From the IMG/VR virus record IMGVR_UViG_3300008120_000149, positions 1-45,079 of that record: a DNA stretch of 45,079 nucleotides; one strand, written 5' to 3'. Source of the stretch: a virus. Positions 9,673 through 44,168 of the stretch are shown here, piece by piece (position 1 is the stretch's first letter; every line of letters begins with the position of its first letter). The position numbers were made by a program, and so were the translations under genes. The notes under the pieces are model-generated. The model was not told the origin of the DNA and ran no database searches. It worked only from the letters and a program-made list of their open reading frames with translations.

Positions 9673-9744
9673 AGCCCCCGACTGGATTTGAACCAGCGAC
9701 CAACGGTTTACAAAACCGTTGCTCTACCACTGAGCTACAAGGGC
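9673..9744 (-). tRNA. tRNA-Thr (anticodon TGT)
   Basis: A 72-base cloverleaf on the minus strand. The acceptor GCCCTTG pairs with CGGGGGC with two G-U pairs, and the discriminator is T. The D-arm starts AGCTCAGTGGTAGAGC. The anticodon stem ACGGT/ACCGT holds the loop TTTGTAA, giving anticodon TGT, which reads ACA. The T-arm has the GGTTCAAATCC core. CCA is not encoded. Confidence 0.95.
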
Positions 9745-9745
9745 A

Positions 9746-10015
9746 TTAATCAGCAGGCAACATTTCTGGATTTTCCAGTTCCAACTCATATAAAAGAGGA
9801 TGACATTCTTCAAGCATTAAGTAATATGATGCCTGATAAAGATCTTCTGGTTCAAATCGTCTTTCGTTGTCTGCCAATTTAATCAATTCCAAGTCGAACA
9901 AAGATTCTTTTGGAAGATCGTCAAAGGTAAAAGGAATTTGATTTATGAAATACAAAAGAACAATTTCAGTTCCTCGATTATACCAAACATATTTGGCATC
10001 TATTCTGTATTTCAT
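9746..10015 (-). CDS. Hypothetical protein between tRNA genes
   Basis: 89 residues starting MKYRIDAKYVWYNRGTEIVLL. It looks like a small alpha/beta domain: an N-terminal beta hairpin, then an acidic helical C-terminus (FEPEDLYQASYYLMLEECH; LLYELELENPEMLPAD). There is no cysteine cluster, membrane segment or known motif. It sits between tRNA-Leu(TAA), 42 bases upstream, and tRNA-Thr, 1 base downstream, so its transcript must be processed together with the tRNAs. I do not recognise the family. Confidence 0.75.
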   Translation of the reverse strand: MKYRIDAKYVWYNRGTEIVLLYFINQIPFTFDDLPKESLFDLELIKLADNERRFEPEDLYQASYYLMLEECHPLLYELELENPEMLPAD

Positions 10016-10057
10016 AGAATAGTCCTTTACTTTTGACTATTTAGAGGATAAACCTCA

Positions 10058-10142
10058 TAGGAACGGGGAGAGTTGAACTCCCACGGGCATAATGCCCAAC
10101 TGATTTTAAGTCAGGTGTGTCTACCGATTCCACCACGCTCCC
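10058..10142 (-). tRNA. tRNA-Leu (anticodon TAA)
   Basis: An 85-base class II tRNA on the minus strand. The acceptor GGGAGCG pairs with CGTTCCT and the discriminator is A. The D-arm is of leucine type (GGTGGAATCGGTAGACAC). The anticodon stem CTGAC/ATCAG region frames TTAAA, giving TAA, which reads TTA. A long variable arm (TTGGGCATTATGCCCGT) precedes the T-arm GGGAGTTCAACTCTCCC. CCA is not encoded. Confidence 0.93.
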
Positions 10143-10146
10143 AAGG

Positions 10147-10218
10147 TGGTTCTGGAGAGAATTGAACTCTCTTCTTACACTTATAAGGTGTAGGATTTAA
10201 CCAATAAGCAACAGAACC
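10147..10218 (-). tRNA. tRNA-Ile (anticodon TAT)
   Basis: A 72-base cloverleaf on the minus strand. The acceptor GGTTCTG pairs perfectly with CAGAACC and the discriminator is A. The anticodon stem TACAC/GTGTA holds the loop CTTATAA, so the anticodon is TAT, which would read ATA. The T-arm is GAGAGTTCAATTCTCTC. The D-stem (GCTT with AATC) appears to have one mismatch. It lies 4 bases from tRNA-Leu(TAA). Many bacteria read ATA with a modified CAT anticodon, so a direct TAT anticodon is noteworthy. Confidence 0.88.
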
Positions 10219-10260
10219 ATTTATAAGACAATCATAAGGCAAGAACCTTAGATTGTCAAG

Positions 10261-10340
10261 TGCCCCCAGTCGGACTCGAACCGACAAGCCGAAGCGGTTG
10301 ATTTTGAATCAACTGCGTTTACCAATTTCGCCACAGGGGC
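10261..10340 (-). tRNA. tRNA-Leu (anticodon CAA)
   Basis: An 80-base class II tRNA on the minus strand. The acceptor GCCCCTG pairs with TGGGGGC (G-U pairs near the base) and the discriminator is A. The D-arm GGCGAAATTGGTAAACGC is of leucine type. The anticodon stem GTTGA/TCAAC holds TTCAAAA, giving CAA, which reads TTG. The variable arm CGCTTCGGCTTG forms a short hairpin. The T-arm is GTCGGTTCGAGTCCGAC. CCA is not encoded. Confidence 0.93.
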
Positions 10341-10893: not shown

Positions 10894-11871
10894 TCACCCT
10901 ACTAGTTGCGTTATTAAATTACTCACCAAAACATCTTGATTCGTAGTATATTCAATAAAATTATCTGTTAATCTACTTGTTATTCTAACCTTTGGTGCAG
11001 AAAAATGAGATCCGTCAGCAGAATTTTGAAACGTCATTTTTATATCTGGAAAAGAATTTAAGAATCCATCTAATATTTGTTTTTCATACCATATTCTTAT
11101 ATTTGCGCCACCACCTTGTCGCGCAGATCCTGGGGGAGCGCCAGCCCCCCCTTCGCCTCCAATTGTTCCATTACCATAGGCATAGATTTGCCCAGGAGCT
11201 ACGGTTGTAAGAAAAAAGGTAATGTTACTATTCGCGCTAGCACCGATTCCAGGCTCTGCCGTTGGATTAGCCAAATTATATCCACCTTTTCCACCGGTTC
11301 CGCTACCCAAACTAGCATTAGAAGCATAAAAGTATGGGGTATTTCCATTTATGGTTATATTACTGTTAGTAAAACTATATTGATATATTCCCAAACCTCC
11401 ACCACCAACAACAGCTAACCAAATATTATTGATACCAATTCCAGCAGCAGCACCACCAGTATCTGGAGTAGAAGAAGTAGTGGTACTTGCACCTCCATCG
11501 TAAGTATCAAACTGTGTAGTATTACGGGTTCCACCAGCGTAATATATTGGTCTTATTTGTAAAGTATATGAAGAAGGGATTTTCATAGAAAGTCTTGTAT
11601 ATCCTCCACCACCATTAACAACAGTTGCAGAAGCACCACCATTACTACCTGTATACTGTTGATTTGTAAACCCTCTTCCCCATATTTCTACAGTAAAATC
11701 TTCTGCACCAAAGTATTTTCTAAGTTCCGATGCAGGAACTTTGTAATTAGTCGAATCTCTACTTACTAAAAATAAATCAGTATCTTGAACAGTCATTAAA
11801 TTTTGAGCCTCTATTTTATAGTTTGTACTATTTCTACTGACCAAAAAAAGATCATTATTTTGTATTGGCAT
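10894..11871 (-). CDS. Glycine-rich putative tail adhesin
   Basis: 325 residues. The N-terminus carries a duplicated motif: NNDLFLVSRNSTNYKIEAQNL at residues 5-25, then DTDLFLVSRDSTNYKVPASEL. It probably serves as an attachment or trimerisation element. A glycine-rich body follows, with GGASATVVNGGGGY, GGAAAGIGINN, GTGGKGGYNLANPTAEPG and GGEGGAGAPPGSARQGGG. It ends in a compact beta domain. Glycine-rich stretches set in beta loops recall the gp38-type tip adhesins of T2/S16-like phages, which use polyglycine-II packing, but the resemblance is architectural only. It lies 2 bases after the collagen-like gene and is probably co-transcribed with it. It could define receptor specificity. Alternative: another fibre segment. 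Confidence 0.8.
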   Translation of the reverse strand: MPIQNNDLFLVSRNSTNYKIEAQNLMTVQDTDLFLVSRDSTNYKVPASELRKYFGAEDFTVEIWGRGFTNQQYTGSNGGASATVVNGGGGYTRLSMKIPSSYTLQIRPIYYAGGTRNTTQFDTYDGGASTTTSSTPDTGGAAAGIGINNIWLAVVGGGGLGIYQYSFTNSNITINGNTPYFYASNASLGSGTGGKGGYNLANPTAEPGIGASANSNITFFLTTVAPGQIYAYGNGTIGGEGGAGAPPGSARQGGGANIRIWYEKQILDGFLNSFPDIKMTFQNSADGSHFSAPKVRITSRLTDNFIEYTTNQDVLVSNLITQLVG

Positions 11872-26096: not shown

Positions 26097-28025
26097 CTAT
26101 CCAATGTTTGAATTTGCTCCAACAGTAAATCCAGATACAGTTTGTTTAGAAGGTTGTGCAAAAGGAATTTCTTTCTTAGAAACTTCCGAATTTTGATTTA
26201 TATTTTTAGACACATTATCTAAAACTGGCTGATCGATAGATTTAGATGCTCCTCCACCATTCTGGAAAGTGTGATAATCATTGATTGGGCAAGATTCCTC
26301 CTCATCACAACTAAAGAATTGCAGTACAGAATTTACAAATCCCAAAGCACTTGTCATATTTCCAGTTATTCCATCGAGTAAAGATGAAGACTGATTTAAT
26401 ATTGTTGCAACATTGGTTAAAGGCTGACTTACGCCCCCAGTTGCAGAATCAATCTGTCCAAAAATAAAACTAGAAGTCTGTCCAGCAAGAGAATCAATTT
26501 TACCAGAAACATATGCAGAAGAATCAGAATATAACAATGAATTCAAAGGAAAAGAATTAGAATCTCCAGAAGCACTTCCCCCAAGTTCAACATAAGAACC
26601 CAAAGATTCTGAAACTAAATTTCCAATAGGAGATATTGCGGCATCCACTCCCTCAGTAATTTCTTGAATTACATTTCCCAATACATTTCCCGTAAGTTGC
26701 TCAACTGAACAAATTGGAACAACTGGAGCAGTTCCTTCTTCTGGTGCAACTTTTTTTAAATTGCCAGAATCATCTTTAAATAATTTACCCAAGAATGATC
26801 CTATCAAACCAACTAATTTTCCAACTATTTTATTAAAAAGACAAACAATTTTACTTGTGCTTTTATCCTTTAACTTTAAAACTTTATTTCTTTGATTTGG
26901 GAATATTTTATCAACTATTTTAGAAATTCTAGAATTCATTTCTTTAATCACATATGCTTTAACCTGCTCAAAGATACTTTTCATATAGGATGCAATTTTT
27001 GACGCAGCAGAATCTATTAATGATTTTAGTTTAGATTCATTTAGATTAGTAGATACTGCATCAATATAACTGTTTGCTGCTTGCTGAACCTTATTAATAT
27101 CTTTTGTAAGATTCTCAATTACTATTTGTATATTTTTTAGATCTGTTTTTTGCTTCTTACAAGGACTAGAAAGAGGAACCTTTCTTAACATTTTTTCATT
27201 ACGAATTACATCAGCTGCACTTAATTCGTGCGGATTATCTGGTTGTTCTCTAGTTGCACCAGGTTGAGAAGGAGAAGTTGAAGAATTTGATTCTTGGCAT
27301 CTATTTTTAATTCCCTTTGCTACTTCAGATTGAATAAATGCCGCCCTATCCTCTTGTCTCAATAGACCGGAGTTTATTCTCGCTTCCGCTTCTATTATAG
27401 CTCTTTGTTGATCTTGAAATTGTGCTTTTGATAAAGGAAGATCTGATCTTAGACCATATTGATTTAACGCAACTCCAGATGGAGGGGGAGAACACTCCGC
27501 AGATTGCTCTGTTGATTTTGGTTTGTTTGTGACCAGTGCCTCTGCAGGTACTTTAATATTTAAATCTTTGTCTCCATTTGCAGGAGTTGCGAATCCACTA
27601 GTGGGACCAAAATTAGTTTTATCTGTACCAGTTTGTGTGCCCAATACGGTCTGAGCATTATTTCCAAGAACCCCCATTATAACAGGAACTTGTTGGTCTT
27701 GCCCGTCTAAAAAGAATCCAAAAACAAAATTACCCTGCCGAATATTTGGAGTTGCAGATGCTGCTGCCTGTCCTCCCCCAGCGGTGATTGGATACATCAC
27801 TTGTGCCCAAGGAAGTTGATCGGAAGGAATTGTAGTCTCCTCCCGATCGTGCAATCCAATTATTCTAACTTTATATCTACGACCCCACCCAGGAACTTGA
27901 TCTTTACTTTCAAATTTTCCAGGAATAATATTGTCTCTCCAAGTTGAATCATCAGCGATCTGTCCGATCCACCAATAAAAATGAGATCCTAGAAATCCAG
28001 GATTAAATAAAGACCCACCTTCCAT
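26097..28025 (-). CDS. gp5: Baseplate hub subunit gp5, OB-fold form without lysozyme domain
   Basis: 642 residues. It starts MEGGSLFNPGFLGSHFYWWI, then VPGWGRRYKVRIIGLHDREE, QLPWAQVMYPITAGGG and VFGFFLDGQDQQVPVIMGVL. This is the gp5 N-terminal OB-fold, which sits on gp27 at the tip of the tail tube. In T4 a lysozyme domain and a C-terminal beta-helix needle follow. Here I see neither. Residues about 150-400 are polar and helical, and residues 400-642 contain many Ser/Gly/Asn repeats (NSFPLNSLLYSDSSAYVSGK). Cys-rich spots occur (CSPPPSG, CKKQKTD, CDEEESC). It lies 6 bases after the CP12-like gene and downstream of gp27. Cell-wall cleavage may be supplied by the hydrolase-containing protein at 29611. 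Confidence 0.88.
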   Translation of the reverse strand: MEGGSLFNPGFLGSHFYWWIGQIADDSTWRDNIIPGKFESKDQVPGWGRRYKVRIIGLHDREETTIPSDQLPWAQVMYPITAGGGQAAASATPNIRQGNFVFGFFLDGQDQQVPVIMGVLGNNAQTVLGTQTGTDKTNFGPTSGFATPANGDKDLNIKVPAEALVTNKPKSTEQSAECSPPPSGVALNQYGLRSDLPLSKAQFQDQQRAIIEAEARINSGLLRQEDRAAFIQSEVAKGIKNRCQESNSSTSPSQPGATREQPDNPHELSAADVIRNEKMLRKVPLSSPCKKQKTDLKNIQIVIENLTKDINKVQQAANSYIDAVSTNLNESKLKSLIDSAASKIASYMKSIFEQVKAYVIKEMNSRISKIVDKIFPNQRNKVLKLKDKSTSKIVCLFNKIVGKLVGLIGSFLGKLFKDDSGNLKKVAPEEGTAPVVPICSVEQLTGNVLGNVIQEITEGVDAAISPIGNLVSESLGSYVELGGSASGDSNSFPLNSLLYSDSSAYVSGKIDSLAGQTSSFIFGQIDSATGGVSQPLTNVATILNQSSSLLDGITGNMTSALGFVNSVLQFFSCDEEESCPINDYHTFQNGGGASKSIDQPVLDNVSKNINQNSEVSKKEIPFAQPSKQTVSGFTVGANSNIG

Positions 28026-28031
28026 TACTTA

Positions 28032-28250
28032 TTAATCCTCATATATTCTACACTCAAGAGCATTTGGGTGAGAGTCGCAATACAATTCAAGTGAAGTTGG
28101 ATCATAATCTTCGTCTGGGTGATTTACTTGATACTGCTCAAGTGCATTGAGTTCATCGCTCAAATGACGACGACGCTGACTACTAACATTAGAATCGTTT
28201 AATTCATCAATATCATCGTTAATATGTTGTTGAAGACTTTTGTTAGTCAT
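28032..28250 (-). CDS. cp12: CP12-like protein (Calvin-cycle inhibitor type C-terminus)
   Basis: 72 residues. The C-terminus LELYCDSHPNALECRIYED (residues 55-72) matches the conserved CP12 tail with its cysteine pair (C58, C67) and the ECRxYxD ending that docks into the GAPDH active-site groove. The N-terminal part (MTNKSLQQHINDDIDELNDS, then RRRHLSDELNALEQYQ) is helical and lacks the N-terminal cysteine pair of plant CP12. In cyanobacteria CP12 binds GAPDH and phosphoribulokinase and slows the Calvin cycle; phage CP12 is known from cyanophages and is thought to direct carbon to the pentose phosphate pathway. The start overlaps the gp27 stop by 4 bases (ATGA), so it is probably translationally coupled within the baseplate operon. 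Confidence 0.75.
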   Translation of the reverse strand: MTNKSLQQHINDDIDELNDSNVSSQRRRHLSDELNALEQYQVNHPDEDYDPTSLELYCDSHPNALECRIYED

Positions 28251-29587
28251 AATGGTACTTTACCAGAAGTGTGATTGCCAACTCTACCAAAAGAATCTCT
28301 AACCAAATTTAATTTAGTATAAGTTTCTTTTGGGGAAATGTAGTGACATAAATCTGCTATAATATATAGACCACCATATTCCTTATTTACCTCTTCATCA
28401 TTAATCGACAATTCTTTAGCATCTACAAAAACAACATCCCCAGCGTGCAAAGAAAAATCTCCAGGGATAGTAATAGTACTCTTTAAAGAAAATAATTGAT
28501 TGTATCTCATTATAGATTGATTTAATATATTCTTATATTCAAAATTTTCTTCTTTGGATTTACTAAGTTGCTGTTGAGTGTTCCCAGAGGGTAATGTTCC
28601 TTTATCCAATAAGTAATAAGTTGTCCTAGAAAATTCTTTATTACTGCCAAGTCGGTTAAATTCTGGGTTTAAAGTTGGAAGTTCCTTTCCTCCTAGTTTT
28701 AAAGATTTTTCTTTTTCTTTTGCATTTGGAGTAATAACTTCATAATAACAACTAAAGGGATCAAATAAAACTGTGCGAGTTGAAAATGCTCCCATTTTTA
28801 ATTTTTCTTGGACATCAACTCTATTATCTTTATAATAATCAAGTGCTTTAACATCATATCCAGAAGGAACATTATCTCCCCTAGAGTCTGGTGTTTGGTT
28901 GAATATAATAGACTTTTTCTTTTCTTGGCTTAATAAAGAATCTATAGACTTAAATTTAAATCCATCTGTAGTTTCAAAGAAAAAATATCCCGCAGTATTT
29001 CCAGTCGCTTCTGAAAAATTAGGGACTGCTTTTTTAGACAACCAATTTAAAGCATAATATGGTTTTCTATTATTTCCAATAAAATTATAGTTATTAGATG
29101 TATCTTCAATATCAACTTTTTTGCCCGTGGAAAGATATTTTTGGTCCGTTAAAATCTGCTTAATGTGTTCGGAAATTTTACCATCAAATCTTTCATTGAG
29201 TCTAATTTTTTCATTCATAATAAATTCTTTGGAAACTAATTCCAATTGAATCATAGATTTTGTAGTATCTTCTGAAATTGGAGAAACTTTATTCACATAA
29301 AGAACTAAGTCTAAAGTAACTTCATTATTATCAGTAAATTTCAAATATACTTTTTCCTGCCCAACAATAGGCAAACCATCTACTACTGTTTTATCATCAA
29401 CCGAATTTCCAGTATCAGCAAAAGTATAAGTTGCTTTAATAGTATCCTGCAGAATACTTTCATAATACATTAGACGAACAGCACCATTCACAACGCTCGC
29501 AGTTTTACTTTGATCCTTATTAGAAACTACATCTAGTCTCTGTATATAAGAAGATTCTGCGCTTTTAGTTGCTATGAAATTCGCCAT
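28247..29587 (-). CDS. gp27: Baseplate hub subunit gp27
   Basis: 446 residues. It starts MANFIATKSAESSYIQRLDV. The N-terminal half has the gp27-like pattern YESILQDTIKATYTFADTGN and LELVSKEFIMNEKIRLNERF. The C-terminal part includes YNQLFSLKSTITIPGDFSLH and GDVVFVDA, then YGGLYIIADLCHYISPKETY. This matches the hub-protein fold shared with gpD of P2 and VgrG N-termini. It forms the trimeric adaptor between the tail tube and gp5. The gene is followed, with ATGA overlap, by the CP12-like gene and then gp5. It lies 23 bases after the hydrolase-containing tape-measure-like gene. The order tape measure, gp27, gp5 supports the assignment. Confidence 0.87.
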   Translation of the reverse strand: MANFIATKSAESSYIQRLDVVSNKDQSKTASVVNGAVRLMYYESILQDTIKATYTFADTGNSVDDKTVVDGLPIVGQEKVYLKFTDNNEVTLDLVLYVNKVSPISEDTTKSMIQLELVSKEFIMNEKIRLNERFDGKISEHIKQILTDQKYLSTGKKVDIEDTSNNYNFIGNNRKPYYALNWLSKKAVPNFSEATGNTAGYFFFETTDGFKFKSIDSLLSQEKKKSIIFNQTPDSRGDNVPSGYDVKALDYYKDNRVDVQEKLKMGAFSTRTVLFDPFSCYYEVITPNAKEKEKSLKLGGKELPTLNPEFNRLGSNKEFSRTTYYLLDKGTLPSGNTQQQLSKSKEENFEYKNILNQSIMRYNQLFSLKSTITIPGDFSLHAGDVVFVDAKELSINDEEVNKEYGGLYIIADLCHYISPKETYTKLNLVRDSFGRVGNHTSGKVPL

Positions 29588-29610
29588 TTGTTATTACCTC
29601 TTACTTATAT

Positions 29611-32600
29611 TTAACCACCAACATAAAGAGAGTCAAATGGATCGGATTCACTTTCGTTAGAAGAAATCATCAAACCTCCCCCACCTTCATAAGCATCCCC
29701 ACTTCCCGCAACAATTTGAGTATTAGGTACAATTACAATTTGCTCAGACCCAGATTCATACGAAGCAAAATTACTTAAAACATTTATAGCATCTTTATAT
29801 TTTGCCTTATTAATAGCATCTAAGAAACCTGGAAAAGTTCCTTCAATTGCAGCAGTAGAATCTGCATCAATAACAAACTCTCTTCCCTTCTCAGCAATTT
29901 TTGCAATATGAGGGTATGACTTAGTAAATCCACCTTTATCATAACCATTCAATTTACTACTCATATGCATCAATACGGTTTTACCGGATCCAGGAACGGT
30001 TGCATAATTTCCACCACCACCAGGATCATTTTGAAAATTAGTAAGTCTAAAAGGAACCAAAGGGAATCCGGGCATATTAACATCAAATGCAGCTTTCCTG
30101 CCAGAATGAGTATGCATTGCTTGACCTTTTCTAATCAGATTAACATAGTAATCATTATTTTTATTTGCTAATATAGGAGTTCCGTCAGAAAGTTCTGGTT
30201 TTAACCCAGATCCTGCCATTTTTTTGATTAAAGGAACTCCATCCCTTACTAAAGTATCAACAGATCCATCAAAAGATTGAAAGTGTGCGTGAGACCAGTT
30301 AGGTTGAGACATATATGTTCTTCCAGTTAATCCAAATCTCCAATTCCCAGAACCAGAACCAACATCACTAGAATAAGATGTTTCTCCTTTTATATTAGCA
30401 TTAACCTGCGCTGCACTTAATTTACCTGCCTTAAATTGTCCTATCATTGCCCCACCAGGTTCAAATCCAAAAGTATGCCCGTGCCTTGATTTTTCTGTCT
30501 CGTTTGCAAGATGATTATTTGCTTTTTCATAAGCATCTGCTCTAAAACTGTCTCTTGCTCCAACAAATTGTCTAGCAGATTGTTGTTTATTAGTATCTAA
30601 TAAAGCGGCAGCAACTCTCTCAAGTTGTTCCTGTGTTTTACCGTGAGTTTTAGAAAACCTAATAGCATCTTGTTTTGTTTTTATTTTTGACCAAGCATCA
30701 GTACCACCATATTGTCTAACTGGTTGAAATTGACCAGGATTTAATATTGCTTTTTTGATAGTAGGGGCATTCCAAGCAGGATATTGTGTTCTATTATAAA
30801 TCACTTGAGCAACATCTGCAGAACCTTGTGGATGAGAATTTTCAAACATTGCTGCTGTAGCAAGCAACCAAAAATCTTCACTATCACTAGAAACTTGAAC
30901 TCCTCCACCTTCTCCCATATCTTCCGCACTTGGAGCAGTTTTTTCATCTCCTCCGGGTTTCCTAAGTCTCAAGTTTTCCTGTATTTCCCTCAGCGTTTTC
31001 TGAGAATTTGTCTCAGTAGATTCCTTAAATGCTTTTGCTACCCAATCACTAATATCACCACCTTGAGCAATGGCATCTAGTGTTTTAGGATCAACAAATC
31101 CACCCTCAGCAAAAGCAGCAAGACCACCCTTTAATTTCCCATCATCTATTCCTTTTGCAACCAACATATTAATTCCAAGACCAACATTTTTATAGTCTTC
31201 TTGTGTTGGTTTTTGCCCCAAAAGTATCTTAGAAGTAATTGCAAGTATTGGTCCAAAGTAATCACTATCTCCAAGATTCTTACCCGCGTTTTGAATCATT
31301 TTAAATGGATTAATTAATTCATTTGCTTTTTCCTGCATCATTTTAAAGGGATTTGGAAATAACCCAAATAATTTTTGCTCCCCACCAACATCAGAACCAG
31401 GAGAAGTTGCCTCAACATCACCAGGTTTTTTTGGTACTAATTTTCTTTTATATTTTGCTTTTCTTGTTAGTGTTCTTCTTACTCCACGCTGAGGTCTTCC
31501 AGATCTTGTTATTCCGCCGCCTGCTTTCTTAACAGTCTTTCCTTTCGCGGATGAAGACTTACCACCAAAAAGAAAATCATATAAGACACCACCAATAGCA
31601 TCACCAGCAACACCCCCTAACAATCCCCCAATAAAGTTTCCAGCAACAGGCACAACGGTTCCTGCAGCAGCACCAACAGCACCAAGGAGTCCTGCACCAA
31701 TTGCTCTAAATGCTGCTCTTCCAGGGTTCTCTCCAAGAGCAACAGACAAACCAAAATCAATCAGTGCTCCAACTACCGGAAGAGGAATCCTTTTTAAAAA
31801 TGGTCTTACCGAAGAAAGAAGTGCTCTATTACCACCACGTCCAACTGTTACTTTAGGTCTTTGTCTAAAAGGATTTCTTACATCAGGTCTCCCTACTGTT
31901 CTACCACCACTTGTAGTAACCTTAGGTTTTCCGCCAGGTCTTACCGCAGTACCACGTCCCTTCCCACCACCAAATCCACCAGAACCAGCAACAGCCATTC
32001 CTGCGATAATAGCAAGATTTAAAAACTGATTTAATGAACTAGATAGTTGATCAAACTGTTTTGCGCCATCATCACCAAAAAGATTTTTTATAAATCCACG
32101 AGTAGCATCATAAGCCTTATATCCCCAATCAATAAAAGTTACAAGACCATCTAAAAGTTTTCCACCAACACCAAGAACAAAATCAGTTGCCTTACCCAAA
32201 AACTTTACAATAGGTATTATCTTTGGCAAATGATCTACTAGTCTGACTGCAAAATATCCAAGAATAATATTTCCAATAAAGTTCTTTACCCAATCCAAAA
32301 ATCCCATTCTAGGCAGACTAGGCATTTTTATTTTGCCCTTTTCTGCGTTTGGTTTTGTTTCTAATTTTTCTTCTATTTTTTCACGTCTCTCAGAACTCTC
32401 TTTTTTCTTTTCTTCATTCAGTTTTTTCTTATCTGCTGCTAGAGTTCCTTTTAATATATCATCAATTTGAATTACTTTAACACGAACAATACCAAGATTT
32501 TCAACAGACTTATTAGTAAATCCTATAGATGAGGAACCTTTAATAATATTATTATTAACTTTTGATAGTGCTCCCCCTTTTGCGGAAGGCAAAAACTTTT

Positions 32601-32616
32601 GGGTATTAATCGCCAT
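29611..32616 (-). CDS. Tape-measure-like protein with SleB-type cell wall hydrolase domain
   Basis: 1001 residues. Residues 50-95 are a charged coiled coil. Hydrophobic segments lie at 104-160 and 280-350 (IGAGLLGAVGAAAGTVVPVA and a glycine-zipper run). A basic linker spans 360-400. Residues about 582-720 match the SleB/CwlJ hydrolase family: FWLLATAAMFENSHPQGSAD, VAQVIYNR, IKKAILNPGQFQPV, with E592 in the catalytic glutamate position. Residues about 776-890 (SHAHFQSFDG, HTHSGRKAAFDVN, VLMHMSS) may be an M23- or M15-like domain, but the metal ligands do not line up cleanly. The C-terminus has GREFVIDADSTAAIE, found in tape-measure tails. It is probably ejected or exposed at the tail tip to open peptidoglycan. 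Starts 6 bases after the related 880-residue gene. Confidence 0.8.
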   Translation of the reverse strand: MAINTQKFLPSAKGGALSKVNNNIIKGSSSIGFTNKSVENLGIVRVKVIQIDDILKGTLAADKKKLNEEKKKESSERREKIEEKLETKPNAEKGKIKMPSLPRMGFLDWVKNFIGNIILGYFAVRLVDHLPKIIPIVKFLGKATDFVLGVGGKLLDGLVTFIDWGYKAYDATRGFIKNLFGDDGAKQFDQLSSSLNQFLNLAIIAGMAVAGSGGFGGGKGRGTAVRPGGKPKVTTSGGRTVGRPDVRNPFRQRPKVTVGRGGNRALLSSVRPFLKRIPLPVVGALIDFGLSVALGENPGRAAFRAIGAGLLGAVGAAAGTVVPVAGNFIGGLLGGVAGDAIGGVLYDFLFGGKSSSAKGKTVKKAGGGITRSGRPQRGVRRTLTRKAKYKRKLVPKKPGDVEATSPGSDVGGEQKLFGLFPNPFKMMQEKANELINPFKMIQNAGKNLGDSDYFGPILAITSKILLGQKPTQEDYKNVGLGINMLVAKGIDDGKLKGGLAAFAEGGFVDPKTLDAIAQGGDISDWVAKAFKESTETNSQKTLREIQENLRLRKPGGDEKTAPSAEDMGEGGGVQVSSDSEDFWLLATAAMFENSHPQGSADVAQVIYNRTQYPAWNAPTIKKAILNPGQFQPVRQYGGTDAWSKIKTKQDAIRFSKTHGKTQEQLERVAAALLDTNKQQSARQFVGARDSFRADAYEKANNHLANETEKSRHGHTFGFEPGGAMIGQFKAGKLSAAQVNANIKGETSYSSDVGSGSGNWRFGLTGRTYMSQPNWSHAHFQSFDGSVDTLVRDGVPLIKKMAGSGLKPELSDGTPILANKNNDYYVNLIRKGQAMHTHSGRKAAFDVNMPGFPLVPFRLTNFQNDPGGGGNYATVPGSGKTVLMHMSSKLNGYDKGGFTKSYPHIAKIAEKGREFVIDADSTAAIEGTFPGFLDAINKAKYKDAINVLSNFASYESGSEQIVIVPNTQIVAGSGDAYEGGGGLMISSNESESDPFDSLYVGG

Positions 32617-32621
32617 TTATC

Positions 32622-35264
32622 TTACCTCGCCAACCCTAAAGTATTTTGCTTTGATCTACTGCCTCTAGTAGAAGCACTGAAATTAGGTACATTTGAAGTT
32701 GATGGTTTGCTTCCACTTCCTCTTCTACCATTCATTCCACCTCCAGCAACTACAACTTTTGGTTTGGGTTTTGTTGGAGGTGATAAAGGTTTTCTCTTAT
32801 TTAATTCTGACTGTCTCTTAGCAATAGTTGCTTGGGTTGCTCCCCTTGCTTTCAAGGAAGAAATAGATCCTTTTGATGCCTCATCATATTTCTTTCTTGC
32901 ATTTGCAGCATCAATATTTTTATACGCACCGGGATTTATCATTCTTCCAAGTGATTCAAGTGGATTACTTGTTCCTGTTCCTGGTTGCGGTCCTCTTACA
33001 TAAACTGTCTTACCACCTCTCATTGCTTTATATCCAACAAAAGGTCTTCCTTTATCATCAGTCATAATCTGAGTTTTAGGAGCATCTTTAAAGGACTGGT
33101 CTTTTAATCCATAACCACCCATAATTTTTCCACCTTGGAAAGTCTTTGCCCCTAAACCAGACAAAATAGTTTTTGCTTGCCTTGATAAAACTTCAGAACC
33201 AGTTTCTCCACCAAGTTTAATAACTTTCTGAAGAATTCCACCAAAACTTTTTTGGAATCTTTCTTCTTTATCAACAAGTTCTCTCAACTTTTCTATTCTA
33301 TTTCTAAGTTTTTCTGGCGATTCTTTTCTTGCCTTTTCAATAGATGATGCAAGTCTCTTTGCTTCAACATAATCCAATCCACTTTGCACCAAATAACTTA
33401 ACAATAATTCCACACCAAGAGACTTGAGATTTCCAAATCCACCAGGAACTTTCATATTAGTTTTTATTTGCGGAACAGAAAGTCCTCCAGTTATTCCAGT
33501 TCTAGCAAGTCCTCCACCAGTATAAGGAACAATAGCACTGGTTGCGGGGATAGGTGCTCTAACATTTTTCGCTGCTTTTGAAAAATAGTCTGCAGGAAGA
33601 TTACTAAATTGACCTCTTAAAAAATAATCTGATTTAAGATTTGTGAATTGACCTCTCAAATTTGATTTTGGTGTGTTTAATCTTGGTAAGTTTTCTGCAT
33701 ATCTTGGAGCAGTTTTTGCATCCATATCAAATTTCTTCGCCAAGTCATCAAGTCCTGCTGCTGCTCTAGAACTTTGAGTAAATGATTGTGGATTATTAAC
33801 TGCTTTTATTTTGTCTGCTGCAGATTGGCGAATAGCATCAAGCGCATCATCAGCACCGTGATGTCCCTGAAATATTCTTTCGTAAATATTTTCTCCACCG
33901 ACCATTTTTGCAAAATCAGGCACTCCATTCAATTTCTTAAATGCTTTAAACAAATCTTCTTCTGTTCCAAATTGCCTAAAAACACGTGCAGCACGTCTAA
34001 GAGTATCAACATCAGGATTTGTTCCATAACTAGAAGCAAGAGGTATATCACCAATCATACCACCACCTTGGGCATAAGTGGTTCCGCTCATAATCTTAGG
34101 TTTGTTAGTTCCACCTCCAGCGGCATTCATTGCCTCCAAAGTATCAACACCATACTTAGCAACAGCACCCCGAGACATCACAAACTCGCCATCAGAAAGC
34201 ATCGCAGGAACTTTATCTACACCCTTCTCACCACTTACAAACCCATTTACAAATCCACCACCATTAAACATTCCACCCAAACCACGCTGCAAAACTTGCT
34301 CTCTTTGCAGTTGTGTTGATCCTGGAGTTCCTTGTCCAGGTTTTACCCCTTCTCTTTTTTGTTCATTTTGTTGAGAAGCAGCATAAGCACCAACACCAGC
34401 AGCAGCTGCACCACCAACAACCAAAGAAGTAAGTGGATTTTTTGCAATGACTTTTAGAAGTTGAGGTATTGCAACTTTTCCTATTTGGAATATAAATCTG
34501 CCGACAGTCCCTGTTAAACCTCTAACCAACTTACCAAAACTTGTTCCAAATAAAATATAGGACCCAAGTAATGCAGGCCACCAATCTTTTACAAAACGAA
34601 TAATAGATTTAACTTTACTTACATTCTTTTCATCACCCAACCATTCTACAAGTCTATATACGATTCTTCCAAGTATGACTGTGGTAAAGAATTGAAGTAT
34701 TTTATCAAGTAAGGATTTTACTGGAGCAATAATTTTTTCTGCTAATTTCTTTAATCCTTCAAACCTTTTTTCTAATTTATTCTCTGCAAGATTTCTTTTC
34801 TCTTGTTCTGCTTTCCTTTTTTCATATGCAGATGCATCATCATCCACTTTCTTTTGCAGAGCAAGTGTATCTGCAATCGAAGACATATACTTAGCAATTG
34901 CAGAAATATCTTCTTCTATTCCTGCGCCAACTTTTTGAGAAACTCCAGTATATTTCTGCAATGCACTAGATGGGGATCTCACAAGAGCATTTCCGCGAGG
35001 TCCCTTCATTCCACCACCAGACGCTGGAGAAGGACCTTTCCCAGGAGAAGAAACTGCTGCTTTTGCTGCTTTTGTGGTTACGACTTTATCAACAAACTTT
35101 TCAAAACTTATCTTATTTTTTCTTCTAGAAAATCCTTCTTTTAATTGTTCTTTAGATAATTTTTGCCCACCGACAGTATTCTCCGTAAGGAGTTCATTTA
35201 GGTAATATTCATACCTATCCTTACCAAAAAAACTAGAAGCACTTATTGCTTTAGAAGTGGGCAT
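32622..35264 (-). CDS. Tape-measure-like tail protein
   Basis: 880 residues. The N-terminus (MPTSKAISASSFFGKDRYEY...) is followed by a helical charged region at 120-185. Hydrophobic helices lie at about 189-209, 228-250 and 275-298 (LVVGGAAAAGVGAYAA). The segment GFVNGFVSGEKGVDKVPAML then SDGEFVMSRGAVAKYG at 338-372 is a recurring signature of phage tape-measure proteins. The rest is basic and low in structure, with Gly, Lys and Pro, ending in KQNTLGLAR. A tandem repeat occurs at about residues 535-565 (RGQFTNLKSDYF, RGQFSNLPADYF). No catalytic motif is seen. It lies just after gp51 (overlap about 14 bases) and before the 1001-residue gene, in the position of T4 gp28-gp29. Which of the two sets tail length cannot be told from sequence. 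Confidence 0.77.
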   Translation of the reverse strand: MPTSKAISASSFFGKDRYEYYLNELLTENTVGGQKLSKEQLKEGFSRRKNKISFEKFVDKVVTTKAAKAAVSSPGKGPSPASGGGMKGPRGNALVRSPSSALQKYTGVSQKVGAGIEEDISAIAKYMSSIADTLALQKKVDDDASAYEKRKAEQEKRNLAENKLEKRFEGLKKLAEKIIAPVKSLLDKILQFFTTVILGRIVYRLVEWLGDEKNVSKVKSIIRFVKDWWPALLGSYILFGTSFGKLVRGLTGTVGRFIFQIGKVAIPQLLKVIAKNPLTSLVVGGAAAAGVGAYAASQQNEQKREGVKPGQGTPGSTQLQREQVLQRGLGGMFNGGGFVNGFVSGEKGVDKVPAMLSDGEFVMSRGAVAKYGVDTLEAMNAAGGGTNKPKIMSGTTYAQGGGMIGDIPLASSYGTNPDVDTLRRAARVFRQFGTEEDLFKAFKKLNGVPDFAKMVGGENIYERIFQGHHGADDALDAIRQSAADKIKAVNNPQSFTQSSRAAAGLDDLAKKFDMDAKTAPRYAENLPRLNTPKSNLRGQFTNLKSDYFLRGQFSNLPADYFSKAAKNVRAPIPATSAIVPYTGGGLARTGITGGLSVPQIKTNMKVPGGFGNLKSLGVELLLSYLVQSGLDYVEAKRLASSIEKARKESPEKLRNRIEKLRELVDKEERFQKSFGGILQKVIKLGGETGSEVLSRQAKTILSGLGAKTFQGGKIMGGYGLKDQSFKDAPKTQIMTDDKGRPFVGYKAMRGGKTVYVRGPQPGTGTSNPLESLGRMINPGAYKNIDAANARKKYDEASKGSISSLKARGATQATIAKRQSELNKRKPLSPPTKPKPKVVVAGGGMNGRRGSGSKPSTSNVPNFSASTRGSRSKQNTLGLAR

Positions 35265-42814: not shown

Positions 42815-43566
42815 ACACCGACTTCCATTTTAGCAAGAATATATTCCTTCACAAATCCGGAACGAACAATATCATCAACACCAAATTCAATAATATCAAT
42901 TGAGGGCATGATACGAAGAACCTTCATAAAATCAACGATTCCATTCTTTTCATTGGTCTTAACGAGGTCAGATTGAGTAGCATCACCACAGAACATGATT
43001 TTACTATTCTCTCCTACACGAGTAATGATACTATCAAGTTCATGATAGTTCAGGTTTTGGAATTCATCTACGATAATGATTGAGTTGTCCAGAGTAGTTC
43101 CACGAATAAAAGAAGTACTCCAAAAACTAATTGTACCTTGAGTTTTGAGGTTTCCATAGAGCATTTCAAAAGATGCATCATCTGGCATTTGGAACATATA
43201 CTTTACCATATTCTTATAAGGAATTTGATAAAGAGATGACTTATCTTCGTGGTCTCCAGGAAGAAAACCAATTTCACGAGTAGCAACAAGAGACCTTACA
43301 ATATAGATTTTTTCGTAAGGACTTCTTTCATCTAAAACATCTTGAAGAGCATTATAAAGAGTGATGAAAGTTTTACCTGTTCCAGCACATCCATAAGCAA
43401 CGACATGTTGATTTTTTTCATATGATTTATACAAAAGTTTTTGATTGTCTGTGAGAGGTTCAATCTCTCTCATCAACTCAGAACCAATTGGTTTTTTACG
43501 CTTCATTTGTTTAGCGGTCATACCAACGCCAATTGGTTGATCATCTGTCCTTCTTCTTCTTGCCAT
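42811..43566 (-). CDS. phoH: PhoH-like ATPase
   Basis: 251 residues. Walker A is GCAGTGKT (residues 59-66) and Walker B IIIVDEFQN (163-171), followed by GDATQSD (194-200). The order ENxxLxxSYxxN, VVAYGCAGTGKTFITLYNAL and the IRG-T-LDNS segment are those of phage PhoH, an AAA-type ATPase/helicase-like domain of uncertain role in marine phages. The gene starts 49 bases inside the upstream HNH frame and ends overlapping the exonuclease by 4 bases. The N-terminal basic segment (MARRRRTDDQ) is also translated in another frame as the HNH tail. No phosphate-control (pho box) site was seen. Confidence 0.92.
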   Translation of the reverse strand: MARRRRTDDQPIGVGMTAKQMKRKKPIGSELMREIEPLTDNQKLLYKSYEKNQHVVAYGCAGTGKTFITLYNALQDVLDERSPYEKIYIVRSLVATREIGFLPGDHEDKSSLYQIPYKNMVKYMFQMPDDASFEMLYGNLKTQGTISFWSTSFIRGTTLDNSIIIVDEFQNLNYHELDSIITRVGENSKIMFCGDATQSDLVKTNEKNGIVDFMKVLRIMPSIDIIEFGVDDIVRSGFVKEYILAKMEVGV

Positions 43567-44168
43567 TTAGATTTTTGTAAATGATTTGTTATTTTTAATA
43601 CATGTTCAGCGAATGAAGATACATCCATATCACTTTTCATATAGTTGCATTTAGTGCAACAAGGAACACAATTTTGTTTTTCATATCCCTTTGTATTATC
43701 TATTCTATCAATTCCATTATAAGGAACAGGAACTCCTACATGTTTTCCCCTACCTCTGTTAGGTTGTTTTAATTCTGGTTCTGATCCACAATAATAGCAA
43801 TTTTGTTTAATAATTTCAAGATGTTCTTCTTTTGATAGATCAAAATCTATATTTCTGGATTTAGCCCCAGATTGATACTGTTCATAAATGTACCTATAAA
43901 CGCTTTCAGGTTTTCTTCTTTTTTGAGAGTTTAGATTATTTCTATAAGTGTGCTTGCATCCACAACTTTTTGCTCTGTCTAATTCATTTTTACATAAGAA
44001 ACTTTCATACATAAAAATTTTTTCATTTCCACAAACACATCTACATAAAAGTTTTTTTCTTTTTCTGCCGTTGGAATAAGTTTCAAAAAAAGGAGGAGAA
44101 ATAACTTCAAGATAATAAAATTTATCTCCCACTTTTATTTCTGGATGCTTTATAAAAGTTCTAGACAT
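43518..44168 (-). CDS. HNH endonuclease, likely homing-type insertion
   Basis: 216 residues. Two zinc-binding regions appear: CRCVCGN with SCGCKHT in the N-terminal half, and NCYYCGSEP with GIDRIDNTKGYEKQNCVPCC then TKCNYMKSDM in the C-terminal half. The latter is a classic HNH core. Such free-standing endonucleases cut phage DNA and spread into intergenic sites. The C-terminal 17 residues (SKWQEEEGQMINQLALV) are encoded by the phoH start in another frame. This suggests insertion just before phoH and the loss of the original stop. It has its own TATAAATA promoter about 30 bases upstream, unlike the early-type genes around it. Alternative: a regulatory HNH protein. Confidence 0.88.
   Translation of the reverse strand: MSRTFIKHPEIKVGDKFYYLEVISPPFFETYSNGRKRKKLLCRCVCGNEKIFMYESFLCKNELDRAKSCGCKHTYRNNLNSQKRRKPESVYRYIYEQYQSGAKSRNIDFDLSKEEHLEIIKQNCYYCGSEPELKQPNRGRGKHVGVPVPYNGIDRIDNTKGYEKQNCVPCCTKCNYMKSDMDVSSFAEHVLKITNHLQKSKWQEEEGQMINQLALV

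Follow-up and report, generated by a model that had tools for sequence, protein, structure and literature searches.

The cp12 gene described here lies on the minus strand of a 45,079-nucleotide virus fragment (IMG/VR record IMGVR_UViG_3300008120_000149), the whole of which is referred to below as the window, and it is flanked by two genes of the baseplate hub, gp27 upstream and gp5 downstream (Table 1). Its product, MTNKSLQQHINDDIDELNDSNVSSQRRRHLSDELNALEQYQVNHPDEDYDPTSLELYCDSHPNALECRIYED, ends in ...CDSHPNALECRIYED, which includes C58, C67, and the tail ECRIYED, and is the only CP12 match in the record. A preliminary description of this DNA had placed a 72-residue ORF between gp27 and gp5 and had noted that it shares four bases with the gp27 stop codon, both of which are confirmed from the sequence; at its other end, 6 bases separate the cp12 stop codon from the gp5 start. 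The identity of gp27 is based on its PHROG match together with synteny with the annotated T4-GC 15. Because the window also encodes a gp32-type ssDNA-binding protein, a helicase loader, PhoH, and head closure, tail tube cap, and baseplate wedge proteins, it can be assigned to a T4-like cyanomyovirus.

Table 1. Positions in the window of cp12, the adjoining hub genes, and associated motifs
Feature	Position	Strand	Remarks
cp12	28032..28250	-	72 aa; CP12-C type, with C58/C67 pair and GAPDH-docking tail, no N-terminal Cys pair
gp27-type baseplate hub/tail protein	28247..29587	-	Upstream of cp12; PHROG 350 "tail protein," E 1e-96
Start/stop overlap ATGA	28247..28250	-	gp27 stop / cp12 start; 4 bases
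gp5 baseplate hub / tail lysozyme	26097..28025	-	PF06714 (Gp5_OB), E 2e-6; PHROG 33098, E 7e-155
GAGGAT, CP12 codons E71-D72	28035..28040	-	GAGG is Shine-Dalgarno-like for gp5 (ATGAGGATTAATAAGTA-ATG); putative role
TAAATA in GTTAAATATA	29608..29613	-	T4-type late-promoter-like core, 26 bases before gp27

Other features of the window, likewise on the minus strand, include four tRNA genes (Thr-TGT, Leu-TAA, Ile-TAT, and Leu-CAA) clustered among tail fiber genes at 9673-10340 and a 325-residue ORF (10894-11871), without a PHROG or Pfam match, that is situated between tRNA and tail fiber genes. Beside PhoH (43518-44168) is a gene for a protein of the HNH/endonuclease VII type, which also matches the Srd anti-sigma and sigma-70 decoy families, though more weakly. 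Upstream of gp27 are two large, poorly annotated genes (29611-32616 and 32622-35264, encoding 1001 and 880 residues) with partial matches to cell-wall hydrolases or endolysins; the equivalent slots in other cyanomyoviruses are annotated variably as endolysin, muramidase, or peptidase.

CP12 identity and likeness to host proteins

Judged by its sequence, the ORF is a genuine, full-length cyanophage CP12 auxiliary metabolic gene. The CP12-like character that the preliminary description had read from C58, C67, and the ECRIYED tail is borne out by Pfam, PDB sequence, and fold matches alike. A Pfam search with the 72-residue protein gave a significant match to the CP12 family PF02672 (E 6.9e-13; 49.6 bits against a cut-off of 22.7), with residues 6-71 aligned to model positions 1-70 of 70, i.e. 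to the whole domain, and the same family is matched by all 27 aligned phage CP12s, the window protein included. PHROG 627 is matched with an E value of 2e-21. The best PDB sequence matches are solved CP12 chains (6gfo, 3zdf, and 5nmu), and the CP12 chain of 3zdf has the same residue at 13 of the 21 C-terminal positions. An AlphaFold model, for which the input was an alignment of window, IMG/VR, and host CP12s, has a pLDDT of 91 and shows helices at residues 6-17, 24-43, and 53-60; its top fold match (probability 0.90) is 6gfo_F, a full-length CP12 bound to cyanobacterial GAPDH, with an E value of 0.058 that is weak because the protein is small. Fold matches other than CP12, all with E values above 1, were set aside as helical coincidences.

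Classical CP12, a partner of GAPDH and PRK that is controlled by thioredoxin and known from Thermosynechococcus and plants (PDB 6gfo, 6gve, and 3zdf), provides the best fold match but has an N-terminal cysteine pair that is missing from the window protein, which contains two cysteines in total; the classical AWD_VEE motif is also missing, with HLSDELNAL in its place. The CP12s of the picocyanobacterial hosts (Synechococcus, Prochlorococcus, and Cyanobium) are like the window protein in their helical N terminus without a cysteine pair and in the tail DPxxLExxC...P...EC..Y.D, with an overall identity to it of about 39-51%. Phage CP12s differ from these host proteins by a spacing between the helices that is shorter by two residues, and most of them have P20 where the hosts have alanine. 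C58 and C67 are invariant in the 27 phage proteins and are kept in the hosts as well. In a position-by-position comparison, the residues invariant in hub-located CP12 were mostly conserved in host CP12, with H9, I10, D13, R28, H29, E33, L34, L37, D50, P51, E55, C58, P62, E66, C67, and Y70 near-invariant in both; L17 and P20, conserved only in phages, are common to phages that carry cp12 outside the hub.

In a tree calculated from 73 columns, the inner forks of which are poorly resolved, phage CP12s form one clade separate from host CP12s (SH-aLRT 99). Two entries labeled as host, L138 and L160, group with the phages and probably represent phage contigs within assemblies of single cells or metagenomes. 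Within the phage clade, copies from hub and non-hub sites are intermixed, so that cp12 must have been relocated between sites.

Homology indicates that the phage protein most likely docks on host GAPDH. It would insert its oxidized C-terminal hairpin (C58-C67) together with the ECRIYED tail into the active site of the enzyme, where NAD(P) binds; flux through the Calvin cycle would fall, and more NADPH and ATP would be left to the phage.

Gene order at the gp27-gp5 junction

Both cp12 (T4-GC 337) and its site near gp5 are already known in cyanomyoviruses. Earlier work on the cyanophage gene includes that of Thompson 2011, as cited in PMC5082946, and a survey of 16 cyanomyoviruses reported CP12 in 15 of them, gave positions for the gene that include "near gp5," and described the region near gp5, with its tRNAs, as a hot spot of gene content (Sullivan 2010, PMC3037559). 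The window gene shares with the known cyanophage cp12 its family, length, and C-terminal motif, and many of the known members also share its position between gp27 and gp5; in contrast, the clade to which it belongs is mostly metagenomic, and many of its members overlap gp27 by 4 nt and have no promoter of their own.

CP12 was matched in 373 phage records, at one place in each, and nearly all of these are Synechococcus or Prochlorococcus phages. The order gp27-cp12-gp5 proved to be conserved in most of the cyanomyoviruses examined. The three genes follow one another directly in SynMITS9220M01, DSL-LC02, S-T4, S-SM2, S-SSM7, S-CAM9, S-CAM4, Bellamy, and S-RSM4, and ten further phages keep the order with cargo (cpeT, tRNA, or other genes) between cp12 and gp5 (S-RIM4, S-MS29, S-WAM1, S-RIM8, S-CREM1, S-RIM2, P-TIM40, Syn33, S-SZBM1, and P-SSM4). 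Among the first 80 IMG/VR loci, gp27 is immediately upstream of cp12 in all 80 and gp5 is downstream in 77, the other three being contig ends; in a wider set, gp27 lies no more than 300 nt upstream in 130 of 148 loci. Copies outside the hub are found in P-HM2 (before talC), S-SRM01, S-SKS1, and P-TIM68, and P-SSM5 has a divergent copy, also outside the hub. In six cyanomyoviruses, S-PM2, P-TIM68, S-SKS1, P-SSM2, S-SRM01, and P-HM2, gp27 abuts gp5 with nothing between them; for S-PM2, the survey cited above reports a genome without cp12 (PMC3037559).

The tight and widely conserved coupling of cp12 to gp27 and gp5, with its start/stop overlaps, might be taken to mean that CP12 is a hub assembly chaperone for these two proteins or a component of the virion, and the preliminary description had raised such a second role. 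This is very unlikely. The six phages in which gp27 abuts gp5 lack the gene at the junction, having it elsewhere or not at all, so that CP12 is not a hub component in all relatives and the hub does not need it. The conserved residues of the protein are, moreover, mostly those of the host. The N terminus without the first cysteine pair, previously thought to leave room for a tail function, occurs likewise in the CP12s of host Synechococcus, Prochlorococcus, and Cyanobium and is therefore an inherited feature. In S-SZBM1, where cp12 occupies the hub site, the main text on the published virion proteome lists structural proteins including those of the hub, one enzyme (a cytidylyltransferase), and five unknowns, and it does not name CP12; this weighs weakly against a virion role as small acidic proteins are easily missed in virion proteomes. 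Less probable still is a scheme in which CP12 would be made late for the benefit of the next cell, travel with the virion in loose association with the gp27/gp5 hub, and be injected so as to slow the Calvin cycle immediately, ahead of all phage gene expression.

Least probable among the explanations considered is that cp12 is a neutral passenger, hitch-hiking in a recombination hot spot. Such a reading would accommodate the varying location of the gene between lineages and the presence in the same junction of other cargo, namely cpeT, tRNA, speD, ndhI, and a 2OG-Fe oxygenase, but it is largely refuted by the purifying selection acting on cp12 in relatives (median dN/dS 0.16, with N- and C-terminal parts alike), and the GAPDH-docking tail has been retained.

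Late-promoter motifs and the timing of expression

Cyanomyovirus late promoters have been described as T4-type, NATAAATA, and it has been suggested that middle expression arises where an early and a late promoter overlap (PMC2984593). In the window, TAAATA is found no more than 60 nt upstream of 9 of the 29 minus-strand genes, against 1.3 expected, and gp27 (motif at -26) is among them; the enrichment is positional only, as ATAAATA occurs 14 times in the window overall, where chance would give 20.4. No TAAATA is present in the 60 nt scanned upstream of the window cp12.

Across 104 distinct cp12 upstream sequences, de-duplicated at 85% identity with related loci remaining in the set, TAAATA occurs at -40 to -20 in 44, compared with a mean of 2.8 and a maximum of 9 in shuffles. 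In hub loci where at least 14 nt separate gp27 from cp12, the motif stands at -25 to -36 in 26 of 29, and the gp27 stop codon provides the TAA of several of these hub motifs; in hub loci with a gap of less than 14 nt, here called packed, it precedes cp12 in none of 54. Non-hub loci have it in 19 of 20, where "non-hub" means that no gp27 was present in the fetched flank, some of these contigs being short; one locus (L031) with gp27 34 nt upstream was counted as hub. The neighbors of cp12 in non-hub phages are mostly without TAAATA, and in S-SRM01 the motif precedes just one of 25 genes, namely cp12. Of 52 packed loci, 30 have the motif before gp27; a test of whether gp27 and cp12 carry it in a complementary manner, one having it where the other does not, gave no significant result (Fisher p 0.34). 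The gp5 gene of S-PM2 has TAAATA at -26 in a phage where cp12 is absent, and the hub motif could therefore have belonged originally to gp5.

Some non-hub copies of cp12 lie among small early-type genes (L003 and L217-L257), where they have their own conserved AAATAAATA at about -27 and their neighbors mostly do not; locus L231, with the motif just upstream of 4699, is an example.

Packed loci such as that of the window have no cp12 promoter of their own, and the gene must therefore be read with gp27. The window copy is the extreme of this packed form, being without its own promoter and without a clear Shine-Dalgarno sequence: a scan before the cp12 start, at a locus (L009) whose upstream sequence is identical to that of the window, found just a 3-mer. 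With neither element available, reinitiation after gp27 is the most likely route of translation, and the ATGA overlap is probably the termination-reinitiation site. The translational coupling to gp27 proposed in the preliminary description is thus supported by the overlap, as a prediction. The coding of a gp5 Shine-Dalgarno-like sequence by E71-D72 was considered as a general feature of cp12; it occurs here and is not general across loci.

Taken together, a reading that is reasonably probable as a whole is that the window gene is a CP12 auxiliary gene acting as a GAPDH brake and made from a late gp27 transcript. It would occupy the gp27-gp5 junction as cargo of a known cyanomyovirus hot spot, be transcribed with gp27 from a predicted gp55-dependent late promoter, of which the TAAATA upstream of gp27 is the likely transcription entry for gp27-cp12-gp5, and be translated by predicted reinitiation at the ATGA overlap, with no structural role for its product in the hub.

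An alternative that is unlikely, but to which appreciable weight must be given, is that cp12 is an ordinary early/middle auxiliary gene, transcribed along with genes of nucleotide metabolism, its promoter being either sigma-70-like or an unrecognized phage early promoter and its place in the hub being irrelevant to timing. The cp12 of P-HM2 is reported to be middle-expressed, concurrently with early/middle genes (PMC5082946), and a cargo hot spot near tRNAs (PMC3037559) would suit such a gene. However, sigma-70-like matches of at least 10/12 were found in only 6 of the 104 distinct cp12 upstream sequences, with P-HM2 the sole case within 50 nt of the start; on the strand upstream of the window cp12 nothing notable of this type was detected, a single 9/12 match being within chance; and the late motif goes with cp12 into several genomic settings. 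Unlike the window copy, P-HM2 cp12 lies beside talC and has a sigma-70-like promoter, the TTGACA element of which is overlapped by a TAAATA at -30; since this gene has the motif yet is middle-expressed, the motif alone does not prove late timing. In S-RSM4, where cp12 is in the hub site behind a late motif, carbon fixation is reported to stop at about 2 h of infection, which fits early action better than late, although the phage's other carbon genes confound the comparison.

The hub junction can also host a promoter of the sigma-70 type, as cpeT in the cp12 hub junction of S-RIM2, P-TIM40, and Syn33 (L094, L096, and L098) has TTGACA-17-TAGAAT 50-55 nt upstream. In these three phages cp12 has a late motif and lies next to cpeT, which suggests that the two genes, side by side, may differ in timing.

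The preliminary description had held that cp12 would act late rather than early; the promoter architecture supports this, and the one measured homologue, that of P-HM2, speaks against it. On motif evidence, it is simplest to suppose that the majority of cyanomyovirus cp12 genes, among them that of the window, are expressed late or at least partly late. Infection RNA-seq reportedly exists for Syn9 and P-TIM40.

The gene and its position are ordinary for cyanomyoviruses, and it is the late-promoter signature that is worth following, as it makes a testable case against a purely early/middle role. Phage CP12 has a central place in the model that cyanophages, during early/middle infection, divert the carbon of their host into making nucleotides. 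P-HM2, the source of the expression evidence considered here, appears as a regulatory exception, in that most other cp12 loci, in several genomic settings, have a late motif or would be read on a transcript shared with gp27. If cp12 is indeed late in most cyanomyoviruses, its product would act during virion production or prolong a shut-off that something else has started, and ideas on when the virus shuts off carbon fixation would have to be revised.
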